From a virus: DNA of 31,681 bases. Positions 3,930-31,154 of this stretch are shown one piece after another. Where the stretch lies: positions 1-31,681 of the IMG/VR virus record IMGVR_UViG_3300037557_000074. One strand, given 5' to 3'. A program made the position numbers and the translations under genes. The notes under the pieces were generated by a model. It ran no database searches and had not been told where the DNA came from. It saw nothing but the letters and a program-made list of their open reading frames with translations. Each line of letters starts with the position of its first letter. Within the stretch, counting starts at the first letter, position 1.

Positions 3930-3930
3930 A

Positions 3931-4650: not shown

Positions 4651-4664
4651 TATAATTAAATATT

Positions 4665-8279: not shown

Positions 8280-8293
8280 AAAGGAGAAAAATT

Positions 8294-11915: not shown

Positions 11916-12975
11916 AGATATAAATTGGCTTCTTGATAACGAATTAAATTTCGAAGCAGGCATTGGTTGTAGATTACGATGTGGTGGGTGTATGATGCGT
12001 TTTCAAATGAAACCTGGTAGTCCGGAATATAAATCACAAGCTTGGGACCGTAGATATAATATTCCATTTGAAAAATATAAAGTTATATTTGATGTCTTTA
12101 ATATGGTACAATTCTGTGGAAACTTATCAGATCCAATCTATCATCCGGATTTTATAAAGACATTAAAGTATTTGAAAGGTAGAAAGATGAGAGTTCGTTT
12201 CCATACTAATGGTAGTGGCAAAACAATGGAATGGTGGAAAGATGTTTTCAAAATTTGTCAAGGTGAAAAAAAATGGAAATGGATATTTGCTTTAGATGGT
12301 TTACCAGAAGAATCTCATAAATATAGAGAAAACCAAAATGGCAAACAGGTTTGGGAAATAATGAAGCTTGCTAAAGAGATGCAGATGTATATTGAGTGGC
12401 AATGGATAGTATTTAAATATAATCAATACCATATTGACGAAGGTAAGCTTATGGCTGCGCAATATGGAATACCTTTTCAGGAAATGCATTCATCTCGATG
12501 GGTAGATGATAGATGGAAAGGTGCAAAAGATATGAGAGTATATGAACCATCTTCTGAACATAGAACAGACCAAAGACAAGACCATATAGAAATACCTATT
12601 AAGATTGGAAGAAGTGTTGGTGCTATGGAAGTTTATAGGCCTACTATTAATGAATTTGAAATAGACGCTGACTGTTTAGCTAAATTAAGAAAAGATATAA
12701 TGTTTAATAGTATGGGATATTTTATTCCATGTTGTGAGAAAGACCAATGGGTAGAGTCAATGGAGAAACGTGGATTTTATCAAAAAAAATTTCATATAGA
12801 TAATCTTCATACTGCTGAAGATATTAAAGATGTTTTTATGAGTGATACTTGGCAAAATTTTTATAAAGGATTAGGTGATGACCCTATGAATGCTCCTAGA
12901 CAATGTAAAACTTTTTGTGGTAAGAGTAATTTTCATAAAGACAATATGGGTGGAGACGGTAAAGGCTTTGTATGA
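11902..12975 (+). CDS. Radical SAM enzyme with C-terminal SPASM/twitch-like domain
   Basis: A 357-residue protein. The core has C23-x3-C27-x2-C30 (CRLRCGGC) and FCGNLSDPIYHPDF near 73-86. The C-terminal domain carries C258, C277/C278, C335 and C339, the same spacing as the free-standing protein at 9079. It is thus the fused version of the split pair at 9079-10247, with the domain after the core as in classical SPASM enzymes. It is set between two SGNH-like genes and overlaps both. Which substrate it activates is unknown; SPASM enzymes commonly modify peptides, sugars or small alcohols. Confidence 0.88.
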   Translation: MKTYEDINWLLDNELNFEAGIGCRLRCGGCMMRFQMKPGSPEYKSQAWDRRYNIPFEKYKVIFDVFNMVQFCGNLSDPIYHPDFIKTLKYLKGRKMRVRFHTNGSGKTMEWWKDVFKICQGEKKWKWIFALDGLPEESHKYRENQNGKQVWEIMKLAKEMQMYIEWQWIVFKYNQYHIDEGKLMAAQYGIPFQEMHSSRWVDDRWKGAKDMRVYEPSSEHRTDQRQDHIEIPIKIGRSVGAMEVYRPTINEFEIDADCLAKLRKDIMFNSMGYFIPCCEKDQWVESMEKRGFYQKKFHIDNLHTAEDIKDVFMSDTWQNFYKGLGDDPMNAPRQCKTFCGKSNFHKDNMGGDGKGFV

Positions 12976-13874
12976 ATTATGAAGAAAATAAAAAATTTCT
13001 TAAAAAGTATGGAGACGTAAAAAAGAATATTCCATTTACAAATCCAAATATAACGTTTAAGTCAAACAAAAAAATATTAATAGTAGGTGGTGATAGTTGG
13101 AGTGATAAAACTTTTAGATCTTCTTGTTACCCAGACATGGATGTATCATGGCCTAAGTGGCCTGAGCTATTAGCAAAAAAATGGAATATGGAAATTATTA
13201 ATTTATCTAGAGGTGGTCAAGGGAATGAGTTTATTTACTCAGCAATACAAGATACAATAATGAATATTGAAGACAAATCTAAAATAGGAATGGTTATAGG
13301 TTCATGGTCACAAGTTAGTAGATATGATTATCAGATAACTGAAGGTCATGCAGAATGGGCTCATACTAATGCTAGATATAGTTGGTGGAGTGAAAGAGTA
13401 CAACCAGCTGGTGACTTAATGGGTTGGTTACGTAAAAGTATTAGAAATTTTTTAGGATTACAAATAATGTGTGAAAGGTATGACATACCATATATGCAAT
13501 TTTGTATGGTACATCCATATAGAAATTTCTTAAATGGATTAAAGCCTACAGAAGGGGAAGTATTTCTTGAAGGATTAGACTGGGAAAAAGATGCAATGAA
13601 ATATCCAGGTAATAAACAAAAAGATGAAAAAAATATTTTAAGAATACTTAGTGAACATGAACATCTTATTGATATTGAAAAATTTATAGGTTGGCCAATG
13701 GCAAGCGAGCTTGGAGGGTTTATACTTAATAATGCAATTTTAGGTAAAGCGAAAAAAGACAAATTACCTTGGATTATAGATGAGTTAGACGAGCACCCTA
13801 ATGCTAAAGGGCAAGTGAAATTAATGGAATGGATAAAAACAAAAGCGGAGAATATTTATGACGGGTTGGGATAG
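12972..13874 (+). CDS. SGNH/GDSL hydrolase-like protein (paralogue)
   Basis: A 300-residue protein with about 35 residues more at the N-terminus than the paralogue at 11085. GGDSWSD holds the candidate nucleophile S42, followed by RSSCYPDMDVSWPKWPE, nearly the same as the other copy. RGGQGN is block II, GSWSQ replaces the usual Gly-x-Asn-Asp of block III, and DEHPNA near the C-terminus is block V. The two SGNH proteins share one unusual set of blocks and so form a distinct subfamily. It starts on the stop of the preceding radical SAM gene (ATGA) and overlaps the aminotransferase start by 17 bp. Acyl hydrolase or acyltransferase activity is inference. Confidence 0.72.
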   Translation: MNYEENKKFLKKYGDVKKNIPFTNPNITFKSNKKILIVGGDSWSDKTFRSSCYPDMDVSWPKWPELLAKKWNMEIINLSRGGQGNEFIYSAIQDTIMNIEDKSKIGMVIGSWSQVSRYDYQITEGHAEWAHTNARYSWWSERVQPAGDLMGWLRKSIRNFLGLQIMCERYDIPYMQFCMVHPYRNFLNGLKPTEGEVFLEGLDWEKDAMKYPGNKQKDEKNILRILSEHEHLIDIEKFIGWPMASELGGFILNNAILGKAKKDKLPWIIDELDEHPNAKGQVKLMEWIKTKAENIYDGLG

Positions 13875-14916
13875 AGAATATTTAGAAAACAAAGAAGAGT
13901 ATTTAAAACTCTTTGATAGCGTAATGCAAAAAGAACAAGAAAGAAATATAGAATTTCTTGAGAAGAGTTTAAAAGAATTAACTGGTAGAAAGTTTGCAGT
14001 TGCTTGTGCTAGTGGAACAGATGCTTTAACATTTTCTTTATTAAGTTTAGGTCTTAAACCTGATGATGAAGTATTAGTGACTAGCTTCTCTTGGATATCA
14101 TCAGCATCATGTGTATCATTAGCTGGTGCCACACCAGTATTTTGTGATGTAGATTTACATACATATCACATATCACTTGAAAGTATTGAAGAGATGGTGA
14201 GTGATAAAACAAAAGCAATTGTATATCCATTTCTATTTGGAAGTATATCTGACACTGCAGAAATACAAGAGTACTGTAAGCAAAACAATATTGTCTTTAT
14301 TGAAGATGCTTGCCAAGCGTTAGGTTCTAATTACAATGGATGGATAGCAGGTAACATAGGAGATATTAGTACATTTAGTTTTAATGCTAATAAACAAGTT
14401 GCTGGTATTGCTGGAGGTGGTGCTATACTTACAGACGATAAAAAACAAGCGGTGTTATTTAGAAAATTAAGAAAGCATGGTGAGCATGAAGTATTAGGAT
14501 ATAATTCTAAGATGCTTGGTATGAATGCTGAGTTTATTAATTTTAGATTAGGGAAGATGGATAAGTGGAATTTCCAAAGACAGGTTATTGCTGAAACATA
14601 TGATGAAGCATTTAAAGATTTGCCAGTTCATATACAAAAACCTGATGTTGGATTAAATCATACTTACCATAAATATGTTATAAGGTTTGAGACTAAAGAG
14701 TTAAGAGATAAAATAAAAGATAGAATAAAAGAATCAGGAATACATTATCCTAAACCTATTCCTGAACATCCAATGTATGAAACTCTTATACATAGAAGTA
14801 ATGGATGTAAAAATTCAAAACAGATATGTGATACAATATTAACATTACCAATGAATCCATATTTAGAAGATGAAGAAATAGAAGAAGTTATTAATATAAT
14901 TTTAATGTCAGTATGA
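13858..14916 (+). CDS. DegT/DnrJ/EryC1/StrS-type PLP aminotransferase
   Basis: A 352-residue protein with a good ribosome site (GGAG at 13847-13850, 7 bases from ATG). SGTDA at 52-56 binds the PLP phosphate; D150 and Q153 in IEDACQALGS are the family's pyridine-N and ring contacts; K179 in FSFNANKQ is the PLP lysine. These enzymes put an amino group on keto-sugars (NDP-linked) or on related cyclic ketones. It is complete in length. In this cluster it points to an amino-sugar or aminocyclitol step. It ends in an ATGA overlap with the next gene. The exact substrate cannot be told from sequence. Confidence 0.9.
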   Translation: MTGWDREYLENKEEYLKLFDSVMQKEQERNIEFLEKSLKELTGRKFAVACASGTDALTFSLLSLGLKPDDEVLVTSFSWISSASCVSLAGATPVFCDVDLHTYHISLESIEEMVSDKTKAIVYPFLFGSISDTAEIQEYCKQNNIVFIEDACQALGSNYNGWIAGNIGDISTFSFNANKQVAGIAGGGAILTDDKKQAVLFRKLRKHGEHEVLGYNSKMLGMNAEFINFRLGKMDKWNFQRQVIAETYDEAFKDLPVHIQKPDVGLNHTYHKYVIRFETKELRDKIKDRIKESGIHYPKPIPEHPMYETLIHRSNGCKNSKQICDTILTLPMNPYLEDEEIEEVINIILMSV

Positions 14917-15281
14917 TAGAAGTAGTAAACAATATACTTGTTCAAATAGATGCTGAAGGCAATATGATTTCTATCGATGATAAGTACCAGCAACTATATC
15001 TTAATATGCAAAAAATATTAGGTGATAAGTGTTCGCTTGAATATGAAGCTGGTGCTAGAGAAGTTGAAGATATATATTATTACTTAGTAGAAAAAATATA
15101 TGAGTTACCTACATACGCGTGGGATGCTGAATTTAAAGATGGGCCTAAGCAAAAATTAAATTCAGCATTTAATAAATTTATTCATAATAAAATCTTGTGG
15201 AAAACTCAAGAACCGTATTGGAACAATTACTTCTCAGATGCAAAAAATCTTAGACAAAGCAATGGTAAATTTTTAGTATGA
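14913..15281 (+). CDS. Unknown protein
   Basis: A 122-residue protein that I do not recognise. It is rich in Tyr, Trp, Glu and Lys, with no cysteine motif, signal peptide or membrane helix; predicted mostly helical. It is joined by ATGA overlaps to the aminotransferase before it and the radical SAM gene after it, so it is likely expressed with them. It could be a small partner protein of either. It is too long and lacks the Gly/Cys/core features that would suggest a peptide precursor. Confidence 0.6.
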   Translation: MIEVVNNILVQIDAEGNMISIDDKYQQLYLNMQKILGDKCSLEYEAGAREVEDIYYYLVEKIYELPTYAWDAEFKDGPKQKLNSAFNKFIHNKILWKTQEPYWNNYFSDAKNLRQSNGKFLV

Positions 15282-16117
15282 TAGATTTAAAAGACGTTCA
15301 AAATAATTATTTAGCAATAGACTTCTTTTTGTCAATGTCTTGTAATAAGGATTGTCATTATTGTACTAGCTATACTTTGGAACAAAGGAACCTAACAGTT
15401 GATATGGAGTTCTTAAAGAGAACATTATATTATTTAAGAAACTATAAAACAAGATGTAACATACTTGGTGGTGAACCTGGATTAATAAAAAATTTACCTG
15501 AAGTTATTGAAGAAATTAAAAGTAATCCTAATCATGTATGTGAGGTATTATCTAACTCAACAGTAAGGAGAAGGTACCCAAAAGTATTAACAGATCCTGA
15601 TATAATATATGTTGAGCATTTCATATTAGATTTTTATGAACATGAAATAACTTATTTGGGCCCTAGGTCATATGAGTTCCATCAAGAGAATGATATGAAT
15701 AATTATAACTTAGTGATTAAGACACCTAACTTTGAGAAGTATAAACATCTATATCCTGAAGAGATGAAAAAATTAGATAATAAGAATACATTATGGAAAG
15801 AGTTTAATGGTAGGTCTCCTAATTTTTCTGAGATACAATTAAATCCTCAAGCAGCCGAGATAGATAGGAAGATGTGTGCAGCATTCCCTATGGTACCTGT
15901 TATTAATTTTGAGAATCAAAACTTGGTACATTGTAGTAAGAAGTTTGCAAACAATGCTATCACCTCTAAAGAATTTGAAATTACTCAAGAGAATGTAGAT
16001 AAGATGATGAACTTCAGATTATTTAAATATGAAAACTATTGTGTAACCTGTACAGAATACGTACAACCTAAAGGACACTTCCCATTAAAAAAATACGCGA
16101 GCATATTACTTGAATGA
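15278..16117 (+). CDS. Radical SAM enzyme with C-terminal cysteine domain
   Basis: A 279-residue protein. C22-x3-C26-x2-C29 (CNKDCHYC) is the 4Fe-4S motif, and LGGEPG at 63-68 is the SAM-binding turn. Cysteines C200, C219, C255 and C258 in the last third suggest an auxiliary Fe-S site after the core. It is shorter than the three large radical SAM paralogues and lacks their GTKWEM C-terminal signature, so it is a separate lineage. It starts on the stop of the unknown 122-residue gene and ends on the start of the carbamoyltransferase (ATGA). The substrate is unknown. Confidence 0.85.
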   Translation: MIDLKDVQNNYLAIDFFLSMSCNKDCHYCTSYTLEQRNLTVDMEFLKRTLYYLRNYKTRCNILGGEPGLIKNLPEVIEEIKSNPNHVCEVLSNSTVRRRYPKVLTDPDIIYVEHFILDFYEHEITYLGPRSYEFHQENDMNNYNLVIKTPNFEKYKHLYPEEMKKLDNKNTLWKEFNGRSPNFSEIQLNPQAAEIDRKMCAAFPMVPVINFENQNLVHCSKKFANNAITSKEFEITQENVDKMMNFRLFKYENYCVTCTEYVQPKGHFPLKKYASILLE

Positions 16118-17691
16118 ATAAAATAAAAGCAGTAGCACTAAATCTACACGATCACAATACATATGATGGAGTGTGGCATAACCAAAGAGAAAGACAAACA
16201 CGATTTAAACATAACTTGCCATATTTCGCAGAAGCTTATGCTCATCAATCAGATGTATTAAATCCTAATGACTATAGATTGAATGATGAATTTACTGAAG
16301 AGTATTTTAAAAAAGAAGATGATAGTATACTAGCATTTACATATACTTATGGTGGTGTAAGGATGTCAAAGGAGCCTTTGCTTCAAACAGTTTTAAAAGG
16401 CCATGACGAGATATTTGATTGGCAACCTAAAAAGTTATGGGACCATTATTATAAAGATGGGATATACTTTATAGACCATCATCAATCACATGCTGCTTAT
16501 GCCTTTATTAATTCAGGTTTTGAGCAATCAGATAAATTAGCTATTGATGGTATTGGTAATAGATATAGATGTTGCTTCTTCGATAAGAATGATGTAATGA
16601 CCGATTTATCTAATGTACTACCTATTGGTTGGTTATGGAATCACATGGCAAACTTAACTGGGTTTGGTACATTAGGAGCTGGTAAACTTATGGGCCTATC
16701 TGCTTATGGCCAACGCAATGATTACTTCTATGAAATATTCGAAACAATACTTGCTGGTGAAATAACAGAAAAGAAGCAAGAAAAATTTGACCATATCGAT
16801 TTAAAAAAATATAGGAAACAAGATTTAGCATACACTCTTCAAGAATTCACAATAGATAAAATAAAAGAATTTGTTTATCCACTTAAAACCTCAGAGAATC
16901 TTTGTGTTGCTGGTGGTGTATCTTATAATGGTTATATGAATGAAGAGTTTACTAAAACATGGACGAATGTTCATGTACCTCCAGCTGTAGGTGATGAAGG
17001 TCAAGCTTGTGGGGTGTATCAACATGCTGACTATGTATTAAATAATAATAAGCATATAGTAGATACTTACTCTGGTAAAGCATACGATTGGAAACCTGGA
17101 AAAAATAAATATTTTGAATGGGGATATGAAGAATTATTATGGGAACCTCTTGATATGAAAAGAGTTGCTCAACAAATAGTTGATGGTAAAACAGTAGGTT
17201 GGTTTCAAGGTAAATCTGAGAGTGGTAATAGAGCATTGGGTAATAGAAGCATATTAGCAGACCCACGTAATCCTGACATAAAAGATATTATTAATAGTAC
17301 AATAAAAATGAGAGAAGACTTTAGACCATTTGCTCCTGTTGTAATGGAAGAATATTATCAAGACTACTTTGATACTAATCAACCATCTCCGTATATGTCA
17401 AGAATTATGCCAGTTAAATCTGATAAGATTCCTGGTGTAACACATGTTGATGGAACAGCAAGAATACAAACAGTGAATAGAGAACAAAATGAGAAGTACT
17501 ATGATATGATTCATGAGTTTTATAAATTAATAGGAATACCTATACTATTAAATACTAGCTTTAATTCTCAAGAACCTATTGTAGAAGAACCTTGGCATGC
17601 TATTAGAACGTTTAGAGAAACTGCTATAGATGTATTAGTAATTAATGATTGGATGTTAATTAAAAAAGTAACACATAATGGATGGGACTAA
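16114..17691 (+). CDS. NodU/CmcH-type carbamoyltransferase
   Basis: A 525-residue protein of usual family length. HD in NLHDHNTYDG at 10-19 and ERQTRFKH at 26-33 match the N-terminal start, HHQSHAAYAF at 122-131 is the metal/ATP site block, and AGKLMGLSAYGQ at 189-200 follows it. The C-terminal YrdC-like lobe has GKSESGNRALGNRSILADP and near the end ILLNTSFN. The family uses carbamoyl phosphate and ATP to make carbamoyl-AMP, then passes the carbamoyl group to a hydroxyl of a sugar or antibiotic. It follows the radical SAM gene in an ATGA overlap and overlaps the methyltransferase-like gene by one base. It suggests an O-carbamoyl group on the cluster's product. Confidence 0.92.
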   Translation: MNKIKAVALNLHDHNTYDGVWHNQRERQTRFKHNLPYFAEAYAHQSDVLNPNDYRLNDEFTEEYFKKEDDSILAFTYTYGGVRMSKEPLLQTVLKGHDEIFDWQPKKLWDHYYKDGIYFIDHHQSHAAYAFINSGFEQSDKLAIDGIGNRYRCCFFDKNDVMTDLSNVLPIGWLWNHMANLTGFGTLGAGKLMGLSAYGQRNDYFYEIFETILAGEITEKKQEKFDHIDLKKYRKQDLAYTLQEFTIDKIKEFVYPLKTSENLCVAGGVSYNGYMNEEFTKTWTNVHVPPAVGDEGQACGVYQHADYVLNNNKHIVDTYSGKAYDWKPGKNKYFEWGYEELLWEPLDMKRVAQQIVDGKTVGWFQGKSESGNRALGNRSILADPRNPDIKDIINSTIKMREDFRPFAPVVMEEYYQDYFDTNQPSPYMSRIMPVKSDKIPGVTHVDGTARIQTVNREQNEKYYDMIHEFYKLIGIPILLNTSFNSQEPIVEEPWHAIRTFRETAIDVLVINDWMLIKKVTHNGWD

Positions 17692-18437
17692 TGATAGATA
17701 GAGAAGAATTAACATATATTAAAAACATATTAGAATTATCTAATCAACCTTCAACGATAAATTTTAAATTACTTGAAAATATATTTACTATATTTGAACA
17801 TGAACCTGAACGTAAAGAAGATATATTTGATTCATTTAGCGCCAATCAAGTCAAAGGTAAATCACTATTAGTTAATCACTTAGATAAATTAAATCTTTTA
17901 AATAAAGATACTGAAGTTGTTATCTTTGGTTGTTGGTATGGAAGTGTTCTTATACCATTAATATCAGATAAAGTAAAAAAGATTACATGTATAGATGAAG
18001 ATGACCAAGCTATTACAATAGGTCGGAATAGATTATTTTATAAAGACAATAAAGTTGATTGGATAACCGGTGATGTGTTTGAAGAGTATAGAGATATGTT
18101 TGACACCGCAGATATATTTATTAATACTTCATGTGAACATATGAAGCCAATGTATCTTTGGGGACCAATAGGACCAAGGTCAATATGGAAAGATAATAAG
18201 TTTGTACCTGATTGGCTTGCTCACAAATGTTATAAGATACCTTGGTGGAGTAGAGTTAAACCTACTGCTCACTTTGCTTTTACTTCTAATAATATGATTG
18301 ATATACCAGGTCATATTAATTGTGTAAATAGTATAGAAGAATTTAAAGGACAACTACCTCCTGAAGCAGAGGTATTAATAGAGGATGAATTAGAAGACGA
18401 GAGAGGTATTAGATACATGTTAATAGGAAAGATATGA
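17691..18437 (+). CDS. Class I SAM-dependent methyltransferase-like protein
   Basis: A 248-residue protein. I chose ATG 17691, which forms TAATG with the previous stop, over the ATG at 17682 three residues earlier. VVIFGCWYGS at 76-85 is a variant of the glycine-rich motif I (usual Gly-x-Gly lost), and ITCIDEDDQAI at 98-108 holds an acidic residue at the end of the second strand, as in ribose-binding motif II. INTSCEHM near 144-151 is in the motif IV region. It may methylate an intermediate. Because motif I is imperfect, activity and even SAM use are not certain. Confidence 0.6.
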   Translation: MIDREELTYIKNILELSNQPSTINFKLLENIFTIFEHEPERKEDIFDSFSANQVKGKSLLVNHLDKLNLLNKDTEVVIFGCWYGSVLIPLISDKVKKITCIDEDDQAITIGRNRLFYKDNKVDWITGDVFEEYRDMFDTADIFINTSCEHMKPMYLWGPIGPRSIWKDNKFVPDWLAHKCYKIPWWSRVKPTAHFAFTSNNMIDIPGHINCVNSIEEFKGQLPPEAEVLIEDELEDERGIRYMLIGKI

Positions 18438-19312
18438 AAAGAATAGTTTATAGTATATATGTCGATGTACCGGCAGCTGAACATTTTGGTAATTCAAAAT
18501 ATACTTCACCAAATAAAAATGATTCAGAAGAGAAAGCAACCGAAACAATTAATGCTTTCCAAGGACATTATGATAGGCTCCTTGAAAATAAAAAAGATTA
18601 TGCTAAGAAGATAGGTGCAGCTTTTAAGATGTATACTTATGATGATAAGTATAAATCATTTGAAAAAAATATTCTTAAATTCTTTCCTGAATTAACTGGA
18701 TATGAAGTAATAAATTTTTATAAGATACATATCCTCTGTGAACTAGCAGATGTTTATGATGAAATTTTATATTTAGATTTTGATGCTGTACCTTTAACTA
18801 CTGAAAGTTTCTTTGATGCTTGGGATTTATCAAAGGGGATATGTGTTCTTCATAATAATGCTCATGTAATTAAGAGAGATGCTTTGAATTTTAATCATAG
18901 TATTAGAAGTCCATCAGCAAAATATTATAATTGTCAAGCTATGTTAATAGATGGTGGTTACCCTATTGCTAATGATGTAATTAATACTGGAATCATTGGT
19001 GCAAATGCAGAACATATAAAGCAGTTAGATTACTTTGGTGGGTTTGACCATATAATAGAAATGATGACAGCATTAAGAAGTGATGCATATGCAGACACTG
19101 GTTTATATCCTCAGAACATTCTTGATATGTTTAGGTATGATAACGAAACTATTTTCTCATATAAATTACAAGTTAATAATGTTAATGTACAATGGCTTGA
19201 TAATGAATGGCATTACTTCTTTGACAAGCAACGTTTCATTCCAGCTAAAACAAAAATAGTCCATGCAATCTGTAAAGATTTTGATTGTGTATGGAGAAGG
19301 TTAGATGCTTAA
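18434..19312 (+). CDS. GT-A fold glycosyltransferase-like protein (GT8-like)
   Basis: A 292-residue protein with AGGA at 18425-18428 before the ATG. EILYLDFDAVP at 110-120 contains the D115-x-D117 motif that binds the metal and sugar-nucleotide phosphates, preceded by a helix and Tyr-rich strand as in GT8 enzymes. IVHAICKDF near the C-terminus matches the closing His segment of this fold. The insert at 20-55 is rich in Asn, Glu and Thr. It transfers a sugar from a nucleotide donor to an unknown acceptor, in the cytoplasm (no membrane helix). First of three consecutive GT-A genes ending the operon. Confidence 0.75.
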   Translation: MKRIVYSIYVDVPAAEHFGNSKYTSPNKNDSEEKATETINAFQGHYDRLLENKKDYAKKIGAAFKMYTYDDKYKSFEKNILKFFPELTGYEVINFYKIHILCELADVYDEILYLDFDAVPLTTESFFDAWDLSKGICVLHNNAHVIKRDALNFNHSIRSPSAKYYNCQAMLIDGGYPIANDVINTGIIGANAEHIKQLDYFGGFDHIIEMMTALRSDAYADTGLYPQNILDMFRYDNETIFSYKLQVNNVNVQWLDNEWHYFFDKQRFIPAKTKIVHAICKDFDCVWRRLDA

Positions 19313-20075
19313 GATATGTACAGTATATTTTGGAAATAAATATACTCCAGATTATGTAGGTAAATTGTTTGATAGTATAAGGAGAAACTCAAGCATTCCA
19401 TTTCAATCTATATGTGTAAGTGATAATCCTAATGTTAAAGCAGATGTAGTACTACCATATAATTATAATAGCAATATTAAATTACATTGGCATAAGCTTA
19501 AATTCTTTTCTCCTAACTATGCATATCAAAATCCAGGTGATGATATTATAGTAATGGATATTGACCAAGTTATTGCAGGCAATGTTGATGAACTTATAGG
19601 ACACCCAGTAGAAGACGGTGAATTAATTACTTATGGTGTGTGGTGGAACTCAGAAAAATTAATAGAACATGGATTAACATTACAAACCAACGGTGGGTTT
19701 TATAAATTTAAATCTGGAACTTTATCATATGTATGGGATGACTTCATTGCATCTCCTGAATATTGGCAAATGAAATTTTTTAATGATGAAGTTGTTCATT
19801 ACAGATATTATGGAGAACAAAATTATGTTAATTGGAAAGTGTTTTGGGAAGCTAAAGCAAACGTAATTAAAACACCAGAGAAATGGATAGCTAAATATCA
19901 TAGTGATGATTACTTTGCAAACATTAAACTTAATAAAAAGTATTGTGAAATGTTTGATGCTGATTACATGATTTTAGATGATATAAATCCTAACATTAAA
20001 GTAATACATTTTCTAGGTCCAGAAGAAACTATACATAAAAATAATCTTAAATGGATTGAGGATAACTGGAAATGA
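19305..20075 (+). CDS. GT-A fold glycosyltransferase-like protein
   Basis: A 256-residue protein; GGAG and AAGG at 19293-19300 precede the ATG at 19305. VYFGNKYTPDYVGKLFDSI opens with the nucleotide-binding strand, and IIVMDIDQVIAGNVDEL at 81-97 contains D85-x-D87. VIHFLGPEETIHKN at the C-terminus is in the position of the family's conserved His-x-x-Gly-x-x-Lys. It starts inside the previous gene's last codons and ends with an ATGA overlap. Similarity in the opening and the DxD region links it to the next gene as a probable paralogue. Confidence 0.75.
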   Translation: MLKICTVYFGNKYTPDYVGKLFDSIRRNSSIPFQSICVSDNPNVKADVVLPYNYNSNIKLHWHKLKFFSPNYAYQNPGDDIIVMDIDQVIAGNVDELIGHPVEDGELITYGVWWNSEKLIEHGLTLQTNGGFYKFKSGTLSYVWDDFIASPEYWQMKFFNDEVVHYRYYGEQNYVNWKVFWEAKANVIKTPEKWIAKYHSDDYFANIKLNKKYCEMFDADYMILDDINPNIKVIHFLGPEETIHKNNLKWIEDNWK

Positions 20076-20644
20076 AAAGAATAATTTGTTGTAGGTTTGG
20101 TGATAAGTTTACTCAATGGCATGTTGATAACTTAAAGTATATGATAGACACTCATTCTGGTTTAGAGTATGATACCTTTGAAGTTATTGAAGAAAACTTA
20201 TATGGTAACTGGTATAATAAATTCCAAATGTATGATAGGTTTAGAGATGGGCAGAATTTATATTTTGATTTAGATGTGGTTATCTATAACAAGTTACCAA
20301 ACTTATGGAGAGAAAAATTTACATTGTTAGATGATAAGTGGTGGAGACCAGACTTTGGACATACACCACTCAACTCATCTATTGTTTCTTGGACTGGTGA
20401 TGTATCTCATATATGGGAAAAGTTCTGGCCTTATGCAGATGTCTATATGAAAAAATATAATAAGGGAAGCGATGAGTTTTATTATAATGAAATTGAATAT
20501 AATATATTCGACCCAGTATGTCCAAAGATAGATACCTCTGAACCGCATGCTGCAATGGGAATTGTTACATTAGGTCAACTGCATCACCTAATGGAAGAAG
20601 GCTGGACCGGTTGGTGGTCTAATTATTTCATGCCTTCTTCTTAA
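20072..20644 (+). CDS. GT-A fold glycosyltransferase-like protein, shortened
   Basis: A 190-residue protein. ICCRFGDKFTQWHVDNLKYM corresponds to the opening of the gene before it, and NLYFDLDVVI at 62-71 contains D66-x-D68. It is 66 residues shorter than its neighbour, and lacks that gene's closing HFLGPEE segment, so it could be a reduced but active enzyme or a non-catalytic partner. It is the last gene of the rightward operon. Its stop (20642-20644) overlaps the stop of the converging tail gene within TTAA. Confidence 0.7.
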   Translation: MKRIICCRFGDKFTQWHVDNLKYMIDTHSGLEYDTFEVIEENLYGNWYNKFQMYDRFRDGQNLYFDLDVVIYNKLPNLWREKFTLLDDKWWRPDFGHTPLNSSIVSWTGDVSHIWEKFWPYADVYMKKYNKGSDEFYYNEIEYNIFDPVCPKIDTSEPHAAMGIVTLGQLHHLMEEGWTGWWSNYFMPSS

Positions 20645-22395: not shown

Positions 22396-25300
22396 TTAAG
22401 CTCCTGCTCCGTAAATTGTATTAACAGTTGTTCCTGCCGAGTTAATAATCAATAGTGTTGCTAATGATTTTAATTCAGCTGAACCAACAGCATCATTTGC
22501 AATATGCTCTTCATCAATAGAGTCTGCAGCATAGTGTTCAGAGTTAATAACATCATCACCAATATGAGTAGCGTTTACTTGGTCATCTCCAATCTTTGAA
22601 GCTGTTATACAATCTGCCGCTAAGTGAGCATTATCTATTGATAGGTCTACATACTGGTCAGAATCAACTGAGTTTGCAGACATATGAGCTAAGTCAATGC
22701 TTCCATCAACATACTGGTCTGAATCAACTGAGTTAGCTGACATATGGTCTAGGTCAATAGCACCACTTGCAATCTCTGCCGAGTCAACTGCATCTGCTTG
22801 TATTGTTGCAACTGCTGTTACATTAGCTGAGCCATCAAAACTTCCTGAACTCCAAACCACATCTCCTGTTTGGGCAATAGTTCTGGCAGTTGCTAATGCT
22901 GTTGCTGTAGTAGCATTTCCAGTCCAAGTACCATTACCATTACCTTCTAAGTTAGCAACTAAAGTACCAACTGCATAGCCAGTACCAGCTGTGTTAACTG
23001 TTGTAGTAGGTTCTGCTTGGTTGTCTTTAAATAGCTTCCACTTACCTGAATCAGAAGCATCTCTAAATAAACCACCATAAAGGTCTTGTGAACCAGAGGT
23101 ATCATACAATCCGTATAGACCAATATCAACTGCATCAGCTGCACCATTGTTTGTAGCCATACTCAATAGTGGGTCTGCAACTTCGATAGTTGTTGAACTA
23201 ACTGAAGTGTTAGTACCAGACACCGTTAAGTTACCAGCAATGGTTACATTATCTGGTAAACCGATTGTGATTGTTCCTGAACTCTCAGCAACATTAACCT
23301 CATTGGTAGTTCCAGCAAAAGTAACTGTTGAACCAAGAGCCATAGCTGTAGTGTTTGAACCATCACTTACAGTAATGGATGAGTTAGCCATGTGAACATT
23401 GTCCACTGAACCATCTACATACTGGTCTGAATCAACCGAGTTAGCACTCATATGAGCTAGGTCAATTGACCCATCAACATATTGATCGCTATCAATAGAG
23501 TTAACTGACATATGTTCTAGGTCTACTGCACCTGCCGCGATGTGTTCACTATTAACAACATCATCTGCAATCAATGCTGCAGTGATTTGATCTGCTGCTA
23601 TATGAGCTGTGTCAATTGAACCATCAACATACTGGTCTGAATCGATAGAATTAACACTCATATGTGCCAAGTCTATTGAACCATCAACTATATGTTCTGA
23701 ATCAATCTGGTCATCTGCAATCAATGCTGATGTAATCTGATCTGCTGCAATGTGAGCAGTATCAATTGAACCATCTACATACTGGTCACTATCTACCGAG
23801 TTGGCAGACATATGGGCCAGGTCAATAGAACCATCAACATACTGGTCTGAATCAATAGAGTTAACTGACATATGAGATAAGTCTACTGAACCATCTACTA
23901 GTTCTGCTGAATCAACTGTGTTAGCTTGAAGAGCAGCCGCAGCTGTTACATTAGCTGAACCATCGAAACTTGCCGATGTCCATACAACATCTCCTGTCAT
24001 TCCTATTGTTCTACCAGTTGCTAACGCTGTAGCAGTAGTAGCATTACCAGCTACAGCACCTGTAATATTACCTTCGATGTCTGCAACTAATGTACCTTTA
24101 ACATATCCAGTACCTGAGGTATTAACTGTTGTAGTAGGTACAGCTTGAGTATCTTTAAATAGTTTCCACTTACCAGAATCATTAGCATCTCTGAACATTC
24201 CACTATATAAGTCTTGTGAACCTGATGTATCATACAAACCATAGAATCCAATATCAACCGCGTCAGCTGCATTGTTATTCGTAGCTAATGCAAGTAATGG
24301 GTCAGCAACATTAATTGTTGTTGAGGATATTGTTGTTTGAGTTCCTGATACTGTTAGGTTACCAGCAATGGTTACATTATCTGGTAAACCAATTGTTATC
24401 GTACCAGAACTTTCACCAACTTCAACCTCATTAGCAGTACCACTAAATGTAGCTGTACCACCTAAAGACAATGCTGTAGAGTTTGAACCATCTGTAACTG
24501 TTAGAGTTGAATTAGCTAAGTGAACATTATCAACCGAACCATCAACGTATTGGTCACTGTCTACTGAGTTAGCAGACATATGAGCTAAGTCAACCGAACC
24601 ATCAACTATATGTTCAGAATCGATTTGGTCATCTGCTATTAATGCTGATGTAATATTATCAGCTGCTATATGAGCTGTATCAATAGAGCCATCAACATAC
24701 TGGTCTGAATCAACTGAGTTAGCTGACATATGAACCAGGTCAATAGAGCCATCGACATATTGGTCACTGTCTACAGAGTTTGCTGACATATGAGCTAAGT
24801 CAATTGAACCATCAACGTATTGGTCTGAATCGATAGAGTTAACACTCATGTGAGCTAAGTCAATAGCACCACTTGTAATCTCTGCACTATCAACTGCGTT
24901 AGCTTGAATAGTTGCAACCGCAGTTACATTAGCTGAACCATCGAAACTTCCTGATGACCAGACTACATCGCCTGTTTGAGCAATCGTTCTACCAGTTGCT
25001 AAAGCAGTTGCTGTAGTAGAGTTACCTGATAGAGCTCCTTCAACATTTGAAACTAAGGTACCAACTGCATAGCCAGTGCCAGCAGTGTTAACCGTTGTAG
25101 TAGGGACAGCTTGAGTATCCTTAAAGATTTTCCATTTACCTGAATCGGAAGCATCTCTAAATATACCACCGTATAAATCTTGCGAACCTGATGTATCATA
25201 CAATCCATATAAACCTATGTCCACTGCATCAGCTGCATTGTTACTAGTAGCTAATGAAAGCATTGGGTCTGCTACCTCAATAGTAGTTGAGGAAACAGTT

Positions 25301-26385
25301 GTTTGAGTACCTGCAACTGTTAGGTTACCTGCAATCGTTACGTTAGTAGGTAAACCATATGTTACTGTACCAGCACTTTCAACAACATCAACCTCATTGG
25401 CTGTGCCAGCAAAAGTTAATGTACCACCAAGAGCAACCGGTGATGTGTTTGAACCATCACTTACTGTAACACTTGAATTAGCTAGGTGAACATTATCTAC
25501 TGAGCCATCAACATATTGATCGCTGTCAACACTATTAGCTGACATATGAGCCAGGTCTATTGAGCCATCAACATACTGGTCTGAGTCTACACTATTATCA
25601 CTCATATGAACTAAGTCTATTGAACCATCTACATACTGGTCTGAATCAATACTGTTAGCTGACATGTGAGCTAGGTCAATAGAGGCATCAACATATTGGT
25701 CGGAATCAATACTGTTAACACTCATATGAGCTAGGTCAATTGAAGCATCTACAATATGTTCTGAATCAATTTGGTCATCAGCTATTAAAGCAGATGTAAT
25801 ATTATCTGCAGCAATATGAGCTGTGTCTATTGAACCATCAACGTATTGATCGCTATCTACCGAGTTGGCAGACATATGAGCTAAGTCAATTGAACCATCT
25901 ACATATTGGTCACTATCAACTGAGTTAGCACTCATATGAGATAGGTCAACTGAACCATCAACTAGTTCTGATGAGTCTACTGTATTAGCAGCAAGACTTA
26001 TAGCACCACCATCTGTAATCGTAGCATCACCTGACATTGCTGCATCGCGCCATGTTGATGTTCCTGTGTCGTATAACAACAATGAACCATCAGCGGCGGA
26101 TGTGATGTTTACATCGTTATCTTCGGCAAGGGTGTTTTCACTCGCTATTTGCGCATCAACATAAGCTTTGACGGATTGTTGAGTAGGTACTTTAGTAGCA
26201 CTATCTGTTGCCATGTTATCTTCATCGATAACAAAGGAATATGCTGAAGTACTTGCTTGCGCACTTGTTATTATTGTACCAGCGTCATCTGGTAAAGTAA
26301 TTGTTCTATCTGTGGATGAATTAGGAGAAGCAATAGTAAATATACCAGTTCCGCCTGCATCACCTGTTAATTTTATCTTTGACAT
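22396..26385 (-). CDS. Large repeat-built tail fibre protein (1329 aa)
   Basis: A 1329-residue protein, with AGGAGAG before the ATG. The N-terminus (residues 1-80) has IKLTGDAGGTGIFTIASPNS followed by RTITLP, like fibre N-terminal modules, then a single SVKAYVDAQ segment that recurs in the next gene upstream. It consists mainly of 17 copies of a unit reading DSDQYVDGSID-x-x-HM-x-x-NS, in four blocks, alternating with three copies of a 130-150-residue module (SDGSN..., VTIAGNLTV, DTSGSQDLYGG, SGKWK). The C-terminus (LATLLIINSAGTTVNTIYGAGA) is not repeated. The low-complexity, Asp/Ser-rich design fits a long trimeric fibre shaft. Host-receptor contact is inference. Sequence bias differs from the biosynthetic genes, as expected for a Gly/Ser/Asp-rich protein. 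Confidence 0.85.
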   Translation of the reverse strand: MSKIKLTGDAGGTGIFTIASPNSSTDRTITLPDDAGTIITSAQASTSAYSFVIDEDNMATDSATKVPTQQSVKAYVDAQIASENTLAEDNDVNITSAADGSLLLYDTGTSTWRDAAMSGDATITDGGAISLAANTVDSSELVDGSVDLSHMSANSVDSDQYVDGSIDLAHMSANSVDSDQYVDGSIDTAHIAADNITSALIADDQIDSEHIVDASIDLAHMSVNSIDSDQYVDASIDLAHMSANSIDSDQYVDGSIDLVHMSDNSVDSDQYVDGSIDLAHMSANSVDSDQYVDGSVDNVHLANSSVTVSDGSNTSPVALGGTLTFAGTANEVDVVESAGTVTYGLPTNVTIAGNLTVAGTQTTVSSTTIEVADPMLSLATSNNAADAVDIGLYGLYDTSGSQDLYGGIFRDASDSGKWKIFKDTQAVPTTTVNTAGTGYAVGTLVSNVEGALSGNSTTATALATGRTIAQTGDVVWSSGSFDGSANVTAVATIQANAVDSAEITSGAIDLAHMSVNSIDSDQYVDGSIDLAHMSANSVDSDQYVDGSIDLVHMSANSVDSDQYVDGSIDTAHIAADNITSALIADDQIDSEHIVDGSVDLAHMSANSVDSDQYVDGSVDNVHLANSTLTVTDGSNSTALSLGGTATFSGTANEVEVGESSGTITIGLPDNVTIAGNLTVSGTQTTISSTTINVADPLLALATNNNAADAVDIGFYGLYDTSGSQDLYSGMFRDANDSGKWKLFKDTQAVPTTTVNTSGTGYVKGTLVADIEGNITGAVAGNATTATALATGRTIGMTGDVVWTSASFDGSANVTAAAALQANTVDSAELVDGSVDLSHMSVNSIDSDQYVDGSIDLAHMSANSVDSDQYVDGSIDTAHIAADQITSALIADDQIDSEHIVDGSIDLAHMSVNSIDSDQYVDGSIDTAHIAADQITAALIADDVVNSEHIAAGAVDLEHMSVNSIDSDQYVDGSIDLAHMSANSVDSDQYVDGSVDNVHMANSSITVSDGSNTTAMALGSTVTFAGTTNEVNVAESSGTITIGLPDNVTIAGNLTVSGTNTSVSSTTIEVADPLLSMATNNGAADAVDIGLYGLYDTSGSQDLYGGLFRDASDSGKWKLFKDNQAEPTTTVNTAGTGYAVGTLVANLEGNGNGTWTGNATTATALATARTIAQTGDVVWSSGSFDGSANVTAVATIQADAVDSAEIASGAIDLDHMSANSVDSDQYVDGSIDLAHMSANSVDSDQYVDLSIDNAHLAADCITASKIGDDQVNATHIGDDVINSEHYAADSIDEEHIANDAVGSAELKSLATLLIINSAGTTVNTIYGAGA
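22560..25985. repeat. 17 short DSDQYVD units in four blocks within the fibre gene
   Basis: About 60-bp coding units separated by the long modules. Block extents are near 25480-25985 (6 copies), 24515-24890 (4), 23400-23920 (5) and 22640-22760 (2). The units differ at synonymous sites, which shows they are old enough to have diverged or are converted between copies. Confidence 0.8.
22944..25470. repeat. Three long fibre modules, with a fourth copy in the neighbouring gene
   Basis: Module copies lie near 25031-25470, 24076-24505 and 22944-23376 in this gene. A fourth, partly different copy lies near 28906-29270 in the 1577-aa gene. All share the VTIAGNLTV, DTSGSQDLY and SGKWK landmarks. Confidence 0.8.
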
Positions 26386-26407
26386 TTTATGTCTCTCCTA
26401 AAAAAAT

Positions 26408-26415
26408 TATTTATA
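26408..26415 (-). promoter_or_regulatory. T4-type late promoter (proximal of two)
   Basis: Exact TATAAATA on the minus strand, 22 bp before the fibre ATG at 26385, with AGGAGAG in between. Confidence 0.65.
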
Positions 26416-26417
26416 TC

Positions 26418-26425
26418 TATTTATA
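26418..26425 (-). promoter_or_regulatory. T4-type late promoter (distal of two)
   Basis: Second exact TATAAATA on the minus strand, followed by GA, ten bases upstream of the first. It overlaps the last codons of the 1577-aa gene. Confidence 0.6.
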
Positions 26426-29400
26426 CGATTGCCCAACTACATCCTGTACCGACTGTAACTGAATAACCGCTATTAATTATTATAGGTCCACATGAAATTG
26501 CATTATTGCCATCCGTCATTACATAATTAGATGACACTACACTTTCGTGTTCCCATAATGGTTCTTCGGTAGTGTTACCACCACCAACTAAGCTCCAAGC
26601 ACTTCCATCATAGATTTCAGCTTGAGCCTCTGTTGTATTCCATCTGAAATAACCAGCACTTGGAGAACCATCCCTTTGTGCTGTTGTTCCAGCAGGTATC
26701 TTTGCGGAAGCAGTATTACCTGATTCCATAACCGCGCCAGCAGCTTCTACATTTGTAGCATCTGTGACATCGGCCGATGCTTCAACAGCATCTAATTTTG
26801 TTCCATCACTCGCAATATCTCTTCCATCAACTGTACCACCAACTGTTATGTTACCAGTAAGACTTGCAGTTGCACCTTCAAGGTTAGCAACTAATGTCCC
26901 TGTAGTTACTGTGAGGTTTCCAGTACTAGCACCTGTTGCTGTGGTTGTACCAACTACAAATTTATCAGCACTCTCATCCCACATAATGATTGCGTTATCA
27001 CCTGTGCTACCACGTTCGATAACAATACCTGAATCATTAGCATTGGTACTAGAACCATTGTTAAGTTCTATAAGGTTGTCACTTACTACCATGTTAGTGG
27101 TAGCTACTGTTGTTGTAGTACCATTAACTGTTAAGTCACCGCTTAATGTTAAGTTAACACCAGTTGCAGTACCAGTTATAGTTGGAGCTGTAAGAGATTT
27201 GTTTGTAAGTGTTTGAGTTCCTGTTAATGTAGTAACTGTTGAATCAATTGCAAGTGTTGCTGCATTACCTGTAGCACTTGAAGTTAATCCTGTTCCACCT
27301 AAGATAGATAATGTTTCACTATCTAAGTCAATAGCTATTGTACCAGAATCTGTTGTTAAATCTAAATCCTGTGCCGTGACTTGAGCATCAACGTATGCTT
27401 TAACTGATTGCTGTGATGGAAGACGTGTAGCTGAGTTACTAGCCATGTTGTCTTCATCAATTAATGCTGCAGTGATTCTTGCATCTGCTCTAGCAGATGT
27501 ATGATATAAATTAGTTGAACCTTCGCTAAGGTCATCAGTATCAGATGAGTTTTCATCTATTAATTTACGCCATGCAGATGCATGTGAAAAGTAAGCTTTA
27601 CCTGTTCCATGAACATGAGCAAACATACCATGATATGTTGAAGCACTTGGTAAGTCACCTTCATTTGTAAATACATTTGCATACTTAAGCTCACCTGTTG
27701 TAGTAATATTATTACTACCCATATCAATATTAGTACCTTGTATCGCAGCTATTGCTCTAGCATCTGTAAAGTATTTTGCTGAACCTTCAGATAAGTCATC
27801 TGTATCGTTATTAGCTAGGTCATAACCTGAACCACCAGCTGATGTTGCATCTAATCTTAATGTGTTTGCTGCATCATCATATGTGACTGTAATATTAGTA
27901 CCACCAATAAGCATTGCATTAAGTCTATCATCAAATCTTTCAGCTGTGTAATATAAATTGTTTGAACCCTCTGCGGTCTCATCAGTTGTCTGTGCATCTA
28001 CATAAGCTTTAATTGATTCACCAGAAGCAAGTGTTGTAGCACTGTGGCCTGTTAGTGTATCACTATCAATGACAGCTGAACCACTAACTCCTGTATTAAA
28101 TACTGGACTTGTTAATGTCTTATTAGTTAATGTCTGAGAACCTGTTAATGTTGTAACAGTAGAGTCTATGGAAGCTGTGACACCATTGCCACTACCTACC
28201 GTAGTAATACCTGTGCCACCTGCGATTGTTAGAGTCTCACTATCTAAATCGATTGCTAATGCACCGCCACTATCACCTTGGAAGTCTAAGTCTTGCGCCG
28301 TGACTTGAGCATCTACATATGCTTTAATAGATTGTTGGGAAGCAACTTGGGTAGCACTGTTAGATGCCATGTTATCTTCATCAAGGAATGCAGAACCAGA
28401 TATTCCAGTATTAATAACTGGACTTGTTAGAGTTTTACTTGCTAAGGTCTGTGCACCTGTTAATAATACTATGTCTGAAGTATTAGATAAATCTGTTGAG
28501 GCAATAGTAATGTTAGCAGAACCATTAAAGCTTTGACCAGCGATTGTTCTAGAAGTTGCTAGTATTGTTGCTGTATCTGCATTACCAGTTACATCACCTG
28601 TTAAGTCACCGACAAATGCTGTTGATGTAATACTTGTAGCACCTGTAACTACACCAGCATCAATAACTATTGCACCGTCTAATACAATTTGTTGTCCAGC
28701 CACTGGACCGATAAGTAAATCGGTACCACCAGTAGTTGAAATAGTATTTCCATTTAAGTTAAGGTTGTCAACTTGTAATGCTGTAAGAGTACCTACAGAA
28801 GTAATAGCTGTTTGCGCGGCTTGTGTAACTGATAACGCCGTGCCTGATGTATTACCTGTTACATTACCTGTAAGGTTACCTACTACATTTCCTGTTACAT
28901 TACCTTCAAGGTTAGCAACCCATGTACCAGTCGCATGACCAGTAGCACCTGTATTAACTGTAGTAGTTGGTTCGGCTTGTGAATCCTTATATAGTTTCCA
29001 TTTACCTGAGTCTGATGCATCTCTAAAGAGACCACCATATAAATCTTGTGACCCGCTCGTATCATACAAGCCATATAAACCTATGTCAACTGCATCTGCA
29101 GAACCATTGTTTGTAGCCAATGAAAGCATTGGGTCTGCAACTGTTACAGTGGTTGAGGATACTGTTGTTTGAGTTCCTGATACTGTTAGGTTACCAGCAA
29201 TGGTTACGTTAGTAGGTAACCCAACCGTAAGGGTATTACCTGACATTGCTGTTTCAATTTCGTTTGCTGTACCTGCTATTGTGAGTGTTTCAGAATCTAA
29301 ATCAATAGCTCCTGTACCAGAGTCACCAGCTATATCTAAATCTTGAGCAGTAACCGTTGTATCAACATATGCTTTAATAGATTGTTGAGTTGCTAGGTGA

Positions 29401-31154
29401 GTAGCAGAATCAGATGCCATGTTATCTTCATCTTTAATTGCTGAACCACTTACACCCGTGTTTAGTGTTGGACTAGTTACTGTAGGACTGGTTAATGTTT
29501 TGTTCGTTAGTGTTTCTGTACCTGTTAATGATACAAAGCTTTCACTTTGTAATGCAGCATTAAACTCGGCAAGAGAACCTGTAAGAGTGTTATTACCTAT
29601 GTCAATTGATTTGTTTGTGAGTGTATCAGTAGTATCTTTTAATACAATTGTGCCTGTGGCATTAGGTATAGTAATTGTTCTATCTGCGGTAGGGTCAGTT
29701 ACCGATACTGTTGTTTCATAATCATTGGGAGTGGCACCTTCAAAGACTAAGCTATATGCACCCATTGTTAGGTTAGCACCTAAACTAATTGTTCCAGTAT
29801 TAATAGCTGGACTAGTTAGTGTCTTATTAGTTAATGTTTCTGAACCAGTAAGAGATACAAAGCTATCACCTTGTAAAGCTGTGTTCCATTCTGCTAATGT
29901 ACCAGTTAATGTATTAGCATCAAGGTCAACAGTCTTATTAGTTAATGTTTGTGTAGCTGCAAGACCGGCAAAGCTTTCTGATTGGAGAGCAGTATTATAT
30001 TCTGCTAAAGTACCAGTTAAAGTATTATTACCTAAGTCAATTGATTTGTTTGTTAATGTCTGTGAACCAGTAAGGGTAGCAACTGTACCGTCTATAGCAA
30101 TTGATACATCATTGTTGGATACTGTTGTATCAATACCTGTACCACCAGAGAAATCTAATACATCTGAAGCAAGAGCTACTGCATCATTAGAACCTGAATC
30201 TGCTCCAACTGTTAGTTGAGTTACAATGCTTGCAGTACTTACCGCAGTAACTAATCCCTTAGCATTAACTGTAACAACTGGAATAGCTGTAGCACTACCA
30301 GCTTGGCCTACATTTCCATTAACTGTAGCAAGGGTTAATGCACCAGTGTCTGCTAGTGTAGCATCACCTGACATGACATTGTCAATCCAAACTGAATTGC
30401 CAGTATCATAAAGTAATAGGGAACCATCAGCTACCGATGTAAGAGTAACATCATTCATCTCACTTAACTGATCAGCTGTATCTACTTGGGCATCAACATA
30501 AGCTTTAATACTTTGTTGAGTTGCTAACTGAGTAGCTGAGTTAGTTGCCATATTGTCTTCATCTAATATAGCAGAACCACTAACACCAGTATTAATGACT
30601 GGGCTAGTTAATGTTTTATTTGTAAGAGTTTGAGAATCTGTTAGAAGGACAACAGTATTATCTACCGACCATGTAACACCATTACCAGAACCAACAGTAT
30701 CAATACCTGTTCCACCAGCAAATGTAAGAGTCTCTGAATCTAAATCAATACTTAAAGCACCACCGGAGTCTCCTTGGAAGTCAAGGTCTTGGGCAGTCAT
30801 CTCAGTATCTACATAAGCTTTAATCGATTGTTGAGTAGCTAGATGAGCAGCGGAGTTACTCGCCATGTTATCCTCATCAAGGACGGGAACTACAAAGTCT
30901 AGTGTTCCATCACCATCTTGATAAGTTACTGTAATGAAGGTTTCGGTATTACCCGTTACCATTCCACCTATAAAGTCTTCAACACTCTCTTCAGTTTGAG
31001 AGAATTGGCCTAAGGAATTCCATGCTGTGGAACCATCACCAACTTTCAGATAGGTATTTGTTTTATCTAATCCCAGTTCACCATCGGCAAGAGTAGGGTT
31101 ATTGCTCGACCAGTTGGCCGAGGTATCTCTTCTTATCTTAAATATTGTAGCCAT
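26421..31154 (-). CDS. Large tail fibre protein with Mtd-like N-terminus (1577 aa)
   Basis: A 1577-residue protein with GGAGGAG before the ATG. Residues 1-50 (KIRRDTSANW, ADGELGLDK, VGDGSTAWNSLG) match the N-terminal fibre-head or attachment domain seen in Mtd and many marine fibre proteins. The body repeats a block of SIKAYVD (six copies including a SVKAYVD variant), IDLDSETL and LTGSQTLTNKTLTSP units, with one copy of the VTIAGNLTV...SGKWK module shared with the smaller fibre. The end (NNAISCGPIIINSGYSVTV...SWAIV) resembles the closing strand of marine phage fibres. It would be a trimeric fibre shaft; which part meets the host is unknown. It starts 3 bp behind the 93-aa gene. Confidence 0.88.
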   Translation of the reverse strand: MATIFKIRRDTSANWSSNNPTLADGELGLDKTNTYLKVGDGSTAWNSLGQFSQTEESVEDFIGGMVTGNTETFITVTYQDGDGTLDFVVPVLDEDNMASNSAAHLATQQSIKAYVDTEMTAQDLDFQGDSGGALSIDLDSETLTFAGGTGIDTVGSGNGVTWSVDNTVVLLTDSQTLTNKTLTSPVINTGVSGSAILDEDNMATNSATQLATQQSIKAYVDAQVDTADQLSEMNDVTLTSVADGSLLLYDTGNSVWIDNVMSGDATLADTGALTLATVNGNVGQAGSATAIPVVTVNAKGLVTAVSTASIVTQLTVGADSGSNDAVALASDVLDFSGGTGIDTTVSNNDVSIAIDGTVATLTGSQTLTNKSIDLGNNTLTGTLAEYNTALQSESFAGLAATQTLTNKTVDLDANTLTGTLAEWNTALQGDSFVSLTGSETLTNKTLTSPAINTGTISLGANLTMGAYSLVFEGATPNDYETTVSVTDPTADRTITIPNATGTIVLKDTTDTLTNKSIDIGNNTLTGSLAEFNAALQSESFVSLTGTETLTNKTLTSPTVTSPTLNTGVSGSAIKDEDNMASDSATHLATQQSIKAYVDTTVTAQDLDIAGDSGTGAIDLDSETLTIAGTANEIETAMSGNTLTVGLPTNVTIAGNLTVSGTQTTVSSTTVTVADPMLSLATNNGSADAVDIGLYGLYDTSGSQDLYGGLFRDASDSGKWKLYKDSQAEPTTTVNTGATGHATGTWVANLEGNVTGNVVGNLTGNVTGNTSGTALSVTQAAQTAITSVGTLTALQVDNLNLNGNTISTTGGTDLLIGPVAGQQIVLDGAIVIDAGVVTGATSITSTAFVGDLTGDVTGNADTATILATSRTIAGQSFNGSANITIASTDLSNTSDIVLLTGAQTLASKTLTSPVINTGISGSAFLDEDNMASNSATQVASQQSIKAYVDAQVTAQDLDFQGDSGGALAIDLDSETLTIAGGTGITTVGSGNGVTASIDSTVTTLTGSQTLTNKTLTSPVFNTGVSGSAVIDSDTLTGHSATTLASGESIKAYVDAQTTDETAEGSNNLYYTAERFDDRLNAMLIGGTNITVTYDDAANTLRLDATSAGGSGYDLANNDTDDLSEGSAKYFTDARAIAAIQGTNIDMGSNNITTTGELKYANVFTNEGDLPSASTYHGMFAHVHGTGKAYFSHASAWRKLIDENSSDTDDLSEGSTNLYHTSARADARITAALIDEDNMASNSATRLPSQQSVKAYVDAQVTAQDLDLTTDSGTIAIDLDSETLSILGGTGLTSSATGNAATLAIDSTVTTLTGTQTLTNKSLTAPTITGTATGVNLTLSGDLTVNGTTTTVATTNMVVSDNLIELNNGSSTNANDSGIVIERGSTGDNAIIMWDESADKFVVGTTTATGASTGNLTVTTGTLVANLEGATASLTGNITVGGTVDGRDIASDGTKLDAVEASADVTDATNVEAAGAVMESGNTASAKIPAGTTAQRDGSPSAGYFRWNTTEAQAEIYDGSAWSLVGGGNTTEEPLWEHESVVSSNYVMTDGNNAISCGPIIINSGYSVTVGTGCSWAIV

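Follow-up and report, generated by a model that had tools for sequence, protein, structure and literature searches.

A probable shaft module shared by two adjacent fibre genes of a putative SAR11 phage differs in copy number between related phages

The re-sizing of phage fibres through changes in domain number is already known, and the locus described here is a further example with published precedents. It consists of two adjacent long fibre genes of the virus record IMGVR_UViG_3300037557_000074 that share a protein module. We analyzed the 31,681 bases of this record, and refer to this whole stretch as the window. In the Xanthomonas phages OP1, Xp10 and Xop411, the fibres differ in domain number (-1-2-3-, -1-2-2-2-3-, -1-2-3-3-3-; PMC2248197). 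As that report describes them, these phages resemble our case in that fibre domain number varies among relatives and short repeats lie in and around the domains, whereas their duplications occur in about 118 amino acids (aa) at the N-terminus and are linked to host range, and those considered here involve whole shaft units. In a long fibre gene of Enterococcus phage EfV12-phi1, the number of repeats likewise changes in frame, at a site that precedes the predicted binding domain, but there a new 1.8-kb duplication arose within days of coevolution, while the copies studied here are old and diverged (PMC6365445). A small domain of T4 gp37 also changes in copy number by duplication (Tetart et al. 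1996, as cited by PMC2248197 and PMC6365445); according to the citing papers, in that case the adhesin itself is altered and the host range widened, while here the fibre ends are conserved. Finally, the host recognition cluster of pelagimyophages is presented as a variable block that adjoins VrlC, is bounded by gp14 on the opposite side and contains tail fibres as well as radical SAM cassettes and genes for surface sugars (PMC7029224). This is similar to the window, but the account concerns gene content rather than repeat-unit variation inside fibres, and the word 'recombination' does not appear in its main text. No publication on the module itself was found in a literature search that mostly did not reach subscription journals.

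As in T4, OP1 and EfV12-phi1, fibre domain number differs between related phages at this locus; recent, near-identical copies were not found. The locus offers a sequence-level case, with one clean junction, in which fibre length in uncultivated SAR11-type phages appears to evolve as whole shaft units are gained and lost while the ends are conserved. Two easily merged ideas can also be kept apart here, namely repeat-driven length change, which is seen, and the swap of tips between neighbouring fibre genes, which is not.

The two genes lie on the minus strand, like all fibre features given below. FibB (P0001, 22396-26385) encodes 1,329 aa, with an N-terminal cap, an array of 10/20-aa repeats that includes three shared modules, and a conserved C-terminal end. 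FibA (P0002, 26421-31154) encodes 1,577 aa, with repeat units of 105 aa, one shared module and one diverged copy. Its N-terminus matches Mtd_N (PF18454, E 2.4e-13); this domain by itself does not constitute evidence for a diversity-generating retroelement with its reverse transcriptase and template/variable repeat pair. The original prediction had noticed three motifs common to three copies in FibB and one in FibA. The shared module is confirmed, and the similarity extends far beyond these motifs: the copies can be aligned over approximately 180 aa with 80, 85 and 65% identity to the first copy, and the FibA copy used as a query retrieves the three FibB copies with E-values between 1.2e-57 and 9.3e-55 and 77-82% aa identity. 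At the DNA level, comparison with the reference copy gave 76-77% identity over 300 nucleotides (nt). Each of the four main copies has VTIAGNLTV (three occurrences in FibB, one in FibA) and SGKWK; DTSGSQDLYGG is unchanged in three of them, and the middle FibB copy has DTSGSQDLYSG.

The 127-aa core of the module occupies 25024-25404 in FibB copy 1, 24058-24438 in copy 2, 22930-23310 in copy 3 and 28890-29270 in FibA. The range first assigned to the module, 22944-29270, starts within FibB copy 3 and ends where the FibA core copy does, and three elements had been overlooked. The first is a diverged fifth copy in FibA (26862-27218, search match 26844-27155; 41% identity, E 3e-6). The second is the FibB array of 10/20-aa repeats (22559-26012, 60-nt period, families D1 and D2), in which the three module copies are embedded. 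The third is the family of the FibA unit of approximately 105 aa, marked by an 82-nt repeat (family D6) with six members in FibA (27377-30878) and one in FibB. The 10-aa repeats of FibB exceed the Pfam cut-off for the VbhA and RnlB antitoxins, yet no single stretch passes; these scores are an artefact of the repeats that could mislead automatic annotation.

Variation in the number of module copies among relatives had been proposed as a check. We compared the ten complete FibB genes: those of the window, of five loci in which the conserved gene P0004 also follows FibB (L006, L007, L008, L017 and L021), and of four in which P0004 is not beside FibB (L012, L025, L030 and L032). The cut gene of L041 was excluded. 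FibB carries three modules in the window, two in L007 and one in the remaining eight genes. FibA has one module in eight genes and no full-strength copy (120 bits or more) in four more with matching ends (L030, L032, L133 and L141, L133 and L032 being near-duplicates). Over all loci, we found 119 distinct module-bearing frames (265 before deduplication), 86 of which are complete, and only FibB of the window and of L007 contain more than one full-strength copy. Copy number therefore varies among related sequences, as had been expected, rather than being constant. Because a single copy is present in eight of ten FibB genes, gain of copies is favoured. Identity between the 240-nt upstream flanks is 92% for copy 3 and the L006 copy, compared to 35-80% for the other pairs; on its upstream side, copy 3 is thus likely to correspond to the single L006 copy, and the others are extra.

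More bead types, that is, units of the fibre shaft, occupy the same slots in FibB genes. FibB of L007 (12857-17119) has three copies of a GAITTNSTFDG unit near the C-terminus, which is absent from FibB of the window. A further unit differs in six of the other nine FibB genes, LVRDANSS occurring in L006, L008, L017 and L021 only.

The variation in units affects the length of the fibres and leaves their ends alone. When all pairs of the 86 complete genes were compared by local alignment, 74 pairs were similar at both ends (at least 75% identity at the first 140 and at the last 80 residues), and still their lengths differ by up to 812 residues among the 60 pairs listed. A change of the fibre tip through recombination finds no support in these pairs, which were selected for similar ends. 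In the genes that we compared, FibA and FibB each retain their own N- and C-terminal ends. The six P0004-linked FibB genes share the ending (S/T)L(A/S)TLLI(I/V)N(S/A)AG(T/S)TV, followed by a few residues, despite having one to three modules, and the four remaining genes have a common ending of another kind. Within a group, unit number thus tracks fibre length and not the tip, which differs between the two groups.

The clearest trace of how units are gained or lost comes from L017 and L021, whose identity is 98.2% across the 8.8 kb that flank the site on one side, and 91.4% across 2.4 kb on the opposite side. FibA of L021 is without one 105-aa unit that is present in FibA of L017. One switch between two L017 repeats accounts for 206 of 210 bases, compared to 165 and 183 without a switch, and the switch point falls inside 20 bp that are identical in both repeats. 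Such a single switch, in sequence that both repeats share, is the mark left by homologous recombination between the repeats of one gene. Exact repeats of at least 20 nt, which in FibB are substrates for recombination, number 34 within FibB, two within FibA and two between the genes. The pairwise homoplasy index (PHI) test, in our own implementation with 1,000 permutations, returned 0/1000 for the 13 FibB copies and 0/1000 for the six FibA copies, and the nearest neighbour of a module copy shifts along its length. Both results show the module copies to be mosaic.

A block of FibA also points to recombination between phages. We measured identity at third codon positions in blocks of 50 residues, using only codons for the same residue. 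The module-bearing block at 28623-29372 reaches 87-98% identity to L006 and 77-93% to L007, while the five blocks that follow it share 57-76% and 50-78%, respectively. This block has probably moved between phages, exchange being the simplest reading of the pattern.

Pfam returned nothing convincing for 65 module copies (best E 0.0055, scattered matches), while 58 of the 65 match PHROG 697, a family of structural proteins. No match to the module was found at 1e-5 among 50,697 phage records, and a longer query at E-values up to 10 returned 120 records, none of them with 80% coverage. The best hits of two sequence searches against PDB had E-values of 0.31 and 1.3. AlphaFold modelled a 230-aa unit poorly (pLDDT 60.4) and the 127-aa core moderately well (pLDDT 79.7, pTM 0.63). 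In the core model, three strands follow a long extended part. A fold search with this model returned 29 predicted viral proteins at E ≤ 0.001, of which several carry tail or fibre annotations. The stalks of T4 gp34, of VgrG-type proteins and of endosialidase appear in the fold search at Z-scores of 3.3 or less, among unrelated chains. We infer that the module is a bead of the fibre shaft.

The reading that we favour, and regard as likely, is that FibA and FibB are two long fibres with conserved ends and a shaft of repeat units, in which the module is an interchangeable bead and units are gained and lost by recombination. A T4-like SAR11 phage would encode both of them together, and in each a shaft of repeated units, with the shared module as one interchangeable bead, would link a conserved N-terminal cap to a conserved C-terminal end. 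Bead number and shaft length do vary among related phages whose fibre ends can still be recognised. The number of named modules may have changed in the same way as that of the 105-aa unit, through unequal homologous recombination within the gene and between co-infecting relatives. Each module is predicted to form a small bead of beta-sheet on a stalk that is extended and probably trimeric, and bead number may alter reach or side contacts and not the receptor-binding end.

Several observations weigh against this reading or parts of it. The clean junction of L017 and L021, which bears out the prediction that recombination between repeats changes fibre length, involves the 105-aa unit of FibA and not the module that had been named. 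A second 105-aa difference, between L025 and L012, showed no clean switch (191 of 210 bases), and two gaps between the FibB genes of the same pair gave no resolvable junction. The three FibB copies of the window share only 55-59% identity at third positions and are too diverged for a recent event. The linker downstream of the copies does not single out copy 3, as it is 80% identical to L006 for copy 2 and 74% for copy 3. Seven pairs of contigs with 98.7-100% identity (L008 with L009, L010 and L011; L017 with L050; L032 with L034; L134 with L135 and L133), some of them from one metagenome, show no difference in fibre length where the gene is uncut, and rapid switching is therefore unsupported. 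Regarding the putatively exchanged FibA block, its 5' edge is weak, above all for L007, since the block just 5' of it still has 74% (L006) and 82% (L007) identity. Similarity to L006 is also high elsewhere in FibA, namely in the first 100 residues (96 and 89%) and in residues 1501-1550 (92%). Trimer, bead and reach are predicted features, and Foldseek found no match of the core model to solved structures in PDB at E ≤ 0.001.

Among the alternatives, the one that survives best addresses only the origin of the copies. The ancestor could have had a multi-module FibB, from which most lineages lost copies via deletion between repeats, with the window preserving the old state. The deep divergence of the copies agrees with this possibility, as does the deletion or gain of a unit via repeats that we observed for the 105-aa unit. 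Nevertheless, one copy in eight of ten FibB genes makes gain more parsimonious, and the mosaic copies suggest import. We thus hold an ancestral multi-copy FibB to be possible but doubtful.

The original prediction had proposed that similar DNA in the two adjacent genes allows them to recombine, which changes fibre length or tip. We consider such swapping through the shared module improbable. The modules of FibA and FibB form two separate clades, each with 100/100 support, and broad exchange between the genes is rejected on this ground. Grouping the FibA module of the window with FibB copy 3 is rejected (p 7.8e-6), the FibA and FibB modules of the window are 71-74% identical in DNA, and, as described above, each fibre keeps its own ends. 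What remains in favour of the proposal is a 45-nt stretch of FibB copy 2 (24331-24375, coordinates by arithmetic) identical to FibA 29163-29207. To assess it, codon identity was permuted 20,000 times within amino-acid-identical codons in nine same-genome pairs of FibA and FibB copies. The stretch is a run of 15 codons (p 1/20000), whereas the other eight pairs have runs of only four to six codons. It is one base off FibA of L006 and three bases off FibA of L007, so that the likely direction is from FibA, the putative donor, to FibB copy 2. One short gene conversion has probably happened, judging from codon identity, and it leaves length and tip unaffected.

An earlier run test also seemed to favour exchange, with values below 0.01 in 10 of 78 pairs of FibA and FibB copies. 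Many of these pairs join different genomes, however, and the null of the run test looks inflated; we preferred the codon test. In 13 same-genome pairs, the run test gave one value below 0.01 and two more below 0.05 (0.0148 in L008 and 0.045 for window copy 3 with FibA). Further tracts were sought at sites diagnostic for FibA, as defined from FibA of the window, L006 and L007: copy 1 of the window has 5 of 22 such sites, compared to zero to three in the other 12 copies, and this was too weak to be retained. On the evidence of trees and tracts, exchange between FibA and FibB is rare and their module lineages have long been separate, with the exception of one short tract. Adjacent fibre genes with similar modules need not be exchanging.

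One could also imagine FibA and FibB as linked sequence reservoirs, in which short FibA-module tracts repeatedly re-colour FibB and whole module blocks pass between co-infecting phages. The bead surfaces of the two fibres would then evolve in concert between fixed ends, and the reach on the very small SAR11 cell would be set by the number of beads. We put this forward as a speculation of low probability.

Recent tandem duplication of the FibB copies in the lineage of the window can be set aside as very unlikely. In its favour, only the window and L007 are multi-copy among the 86 complete module-bearing frames, one clade for the two L007 copies is not rejected (p 0.22), and a quick tree joins copies 1 and 2 of the window with a support of 0.866. 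Against it, the window copies are less alike at third positions than copies 2 and 3 are to the one module of L006 (73% and 70%, with copy 1 at 56%), and one clade for the three window copies is rejected (p 0.0175), although mosaic sequences break the assumption of one tree and weaken this test. Both the divergence and the tree test led us to reject it. Errors of assembly, with repeats collapsed or expanded, are the least credible source of the copy-number differences, because, although the genes are repetitive and all loci but one are metagenome assemblies, even the longest exact repeats, of 44 nt inside FibB and of 45 nt between FibA and FibB, are shorter than usual sequencing reads, and lengths agree across separate contigs, of which several derive from other samples.

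The fibre genes belong to a conserved block. The order P0005-FibA-FibB-P0004-P0003 is shared by the window and five further lineages (L006, L007, L008, L017 and L021), near-duplicates aside. P0005 (31157-31438, minus strand, 93 aa) has a fibre-type N-terminus; it looks like a long-fibre N-terminal domain with no further part, and sits before FibA in the relatives of the block. P0004 (21408-22319, minus strand) and P0003 (20641-21408, minus strand) are the conserved genes that follow FibB. Only one of the 50,697 phage records matches P0004, that of Pelagibacter phage Mosig (46.8%), and the same single record is returned when the DNA of positions 1-24000 of the window is searched (one 443-bp piece, 78.2%). 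In Mosig (L227, 6527-14757), VrlC is close to the homologue of P0004; the interval holds two genes, 936 and 225 nt long, but lacks a long fibre gene. Since FibA and FibB are absent from this interval, the site may gain or lose the two fibre genes together. In the relative L008, a VrlC homologue (36% identical to Mosig VrlC) lies upstream of the same gene block.

The window contains a mix of genes of host-recognition type, namely fibre families, radical SAM, a DegT aminotransferase and a carbamoyltransferase. The matches to Mosig relate the window to a SAR11 myophage, and the locus resembles the host recognition region of T4-like SAR11 phages. Because the window stops short of the position of the VrlC gene, and is itself without it, its assignment to the pelagimyophage cluster can only be inferred. 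Facing the fibre genes is a long run of enzyme genes (1686-20644, plus strand). Ten of its proteins were scanned, and they include four with radical SAM matches (two under the curated cut-off) and one match each to nitroreductase, QueC-like protein, DegT aminotransferase and carbamoyltransferase. This run is probably a phage pathway for a surface sugar or a small molecule.

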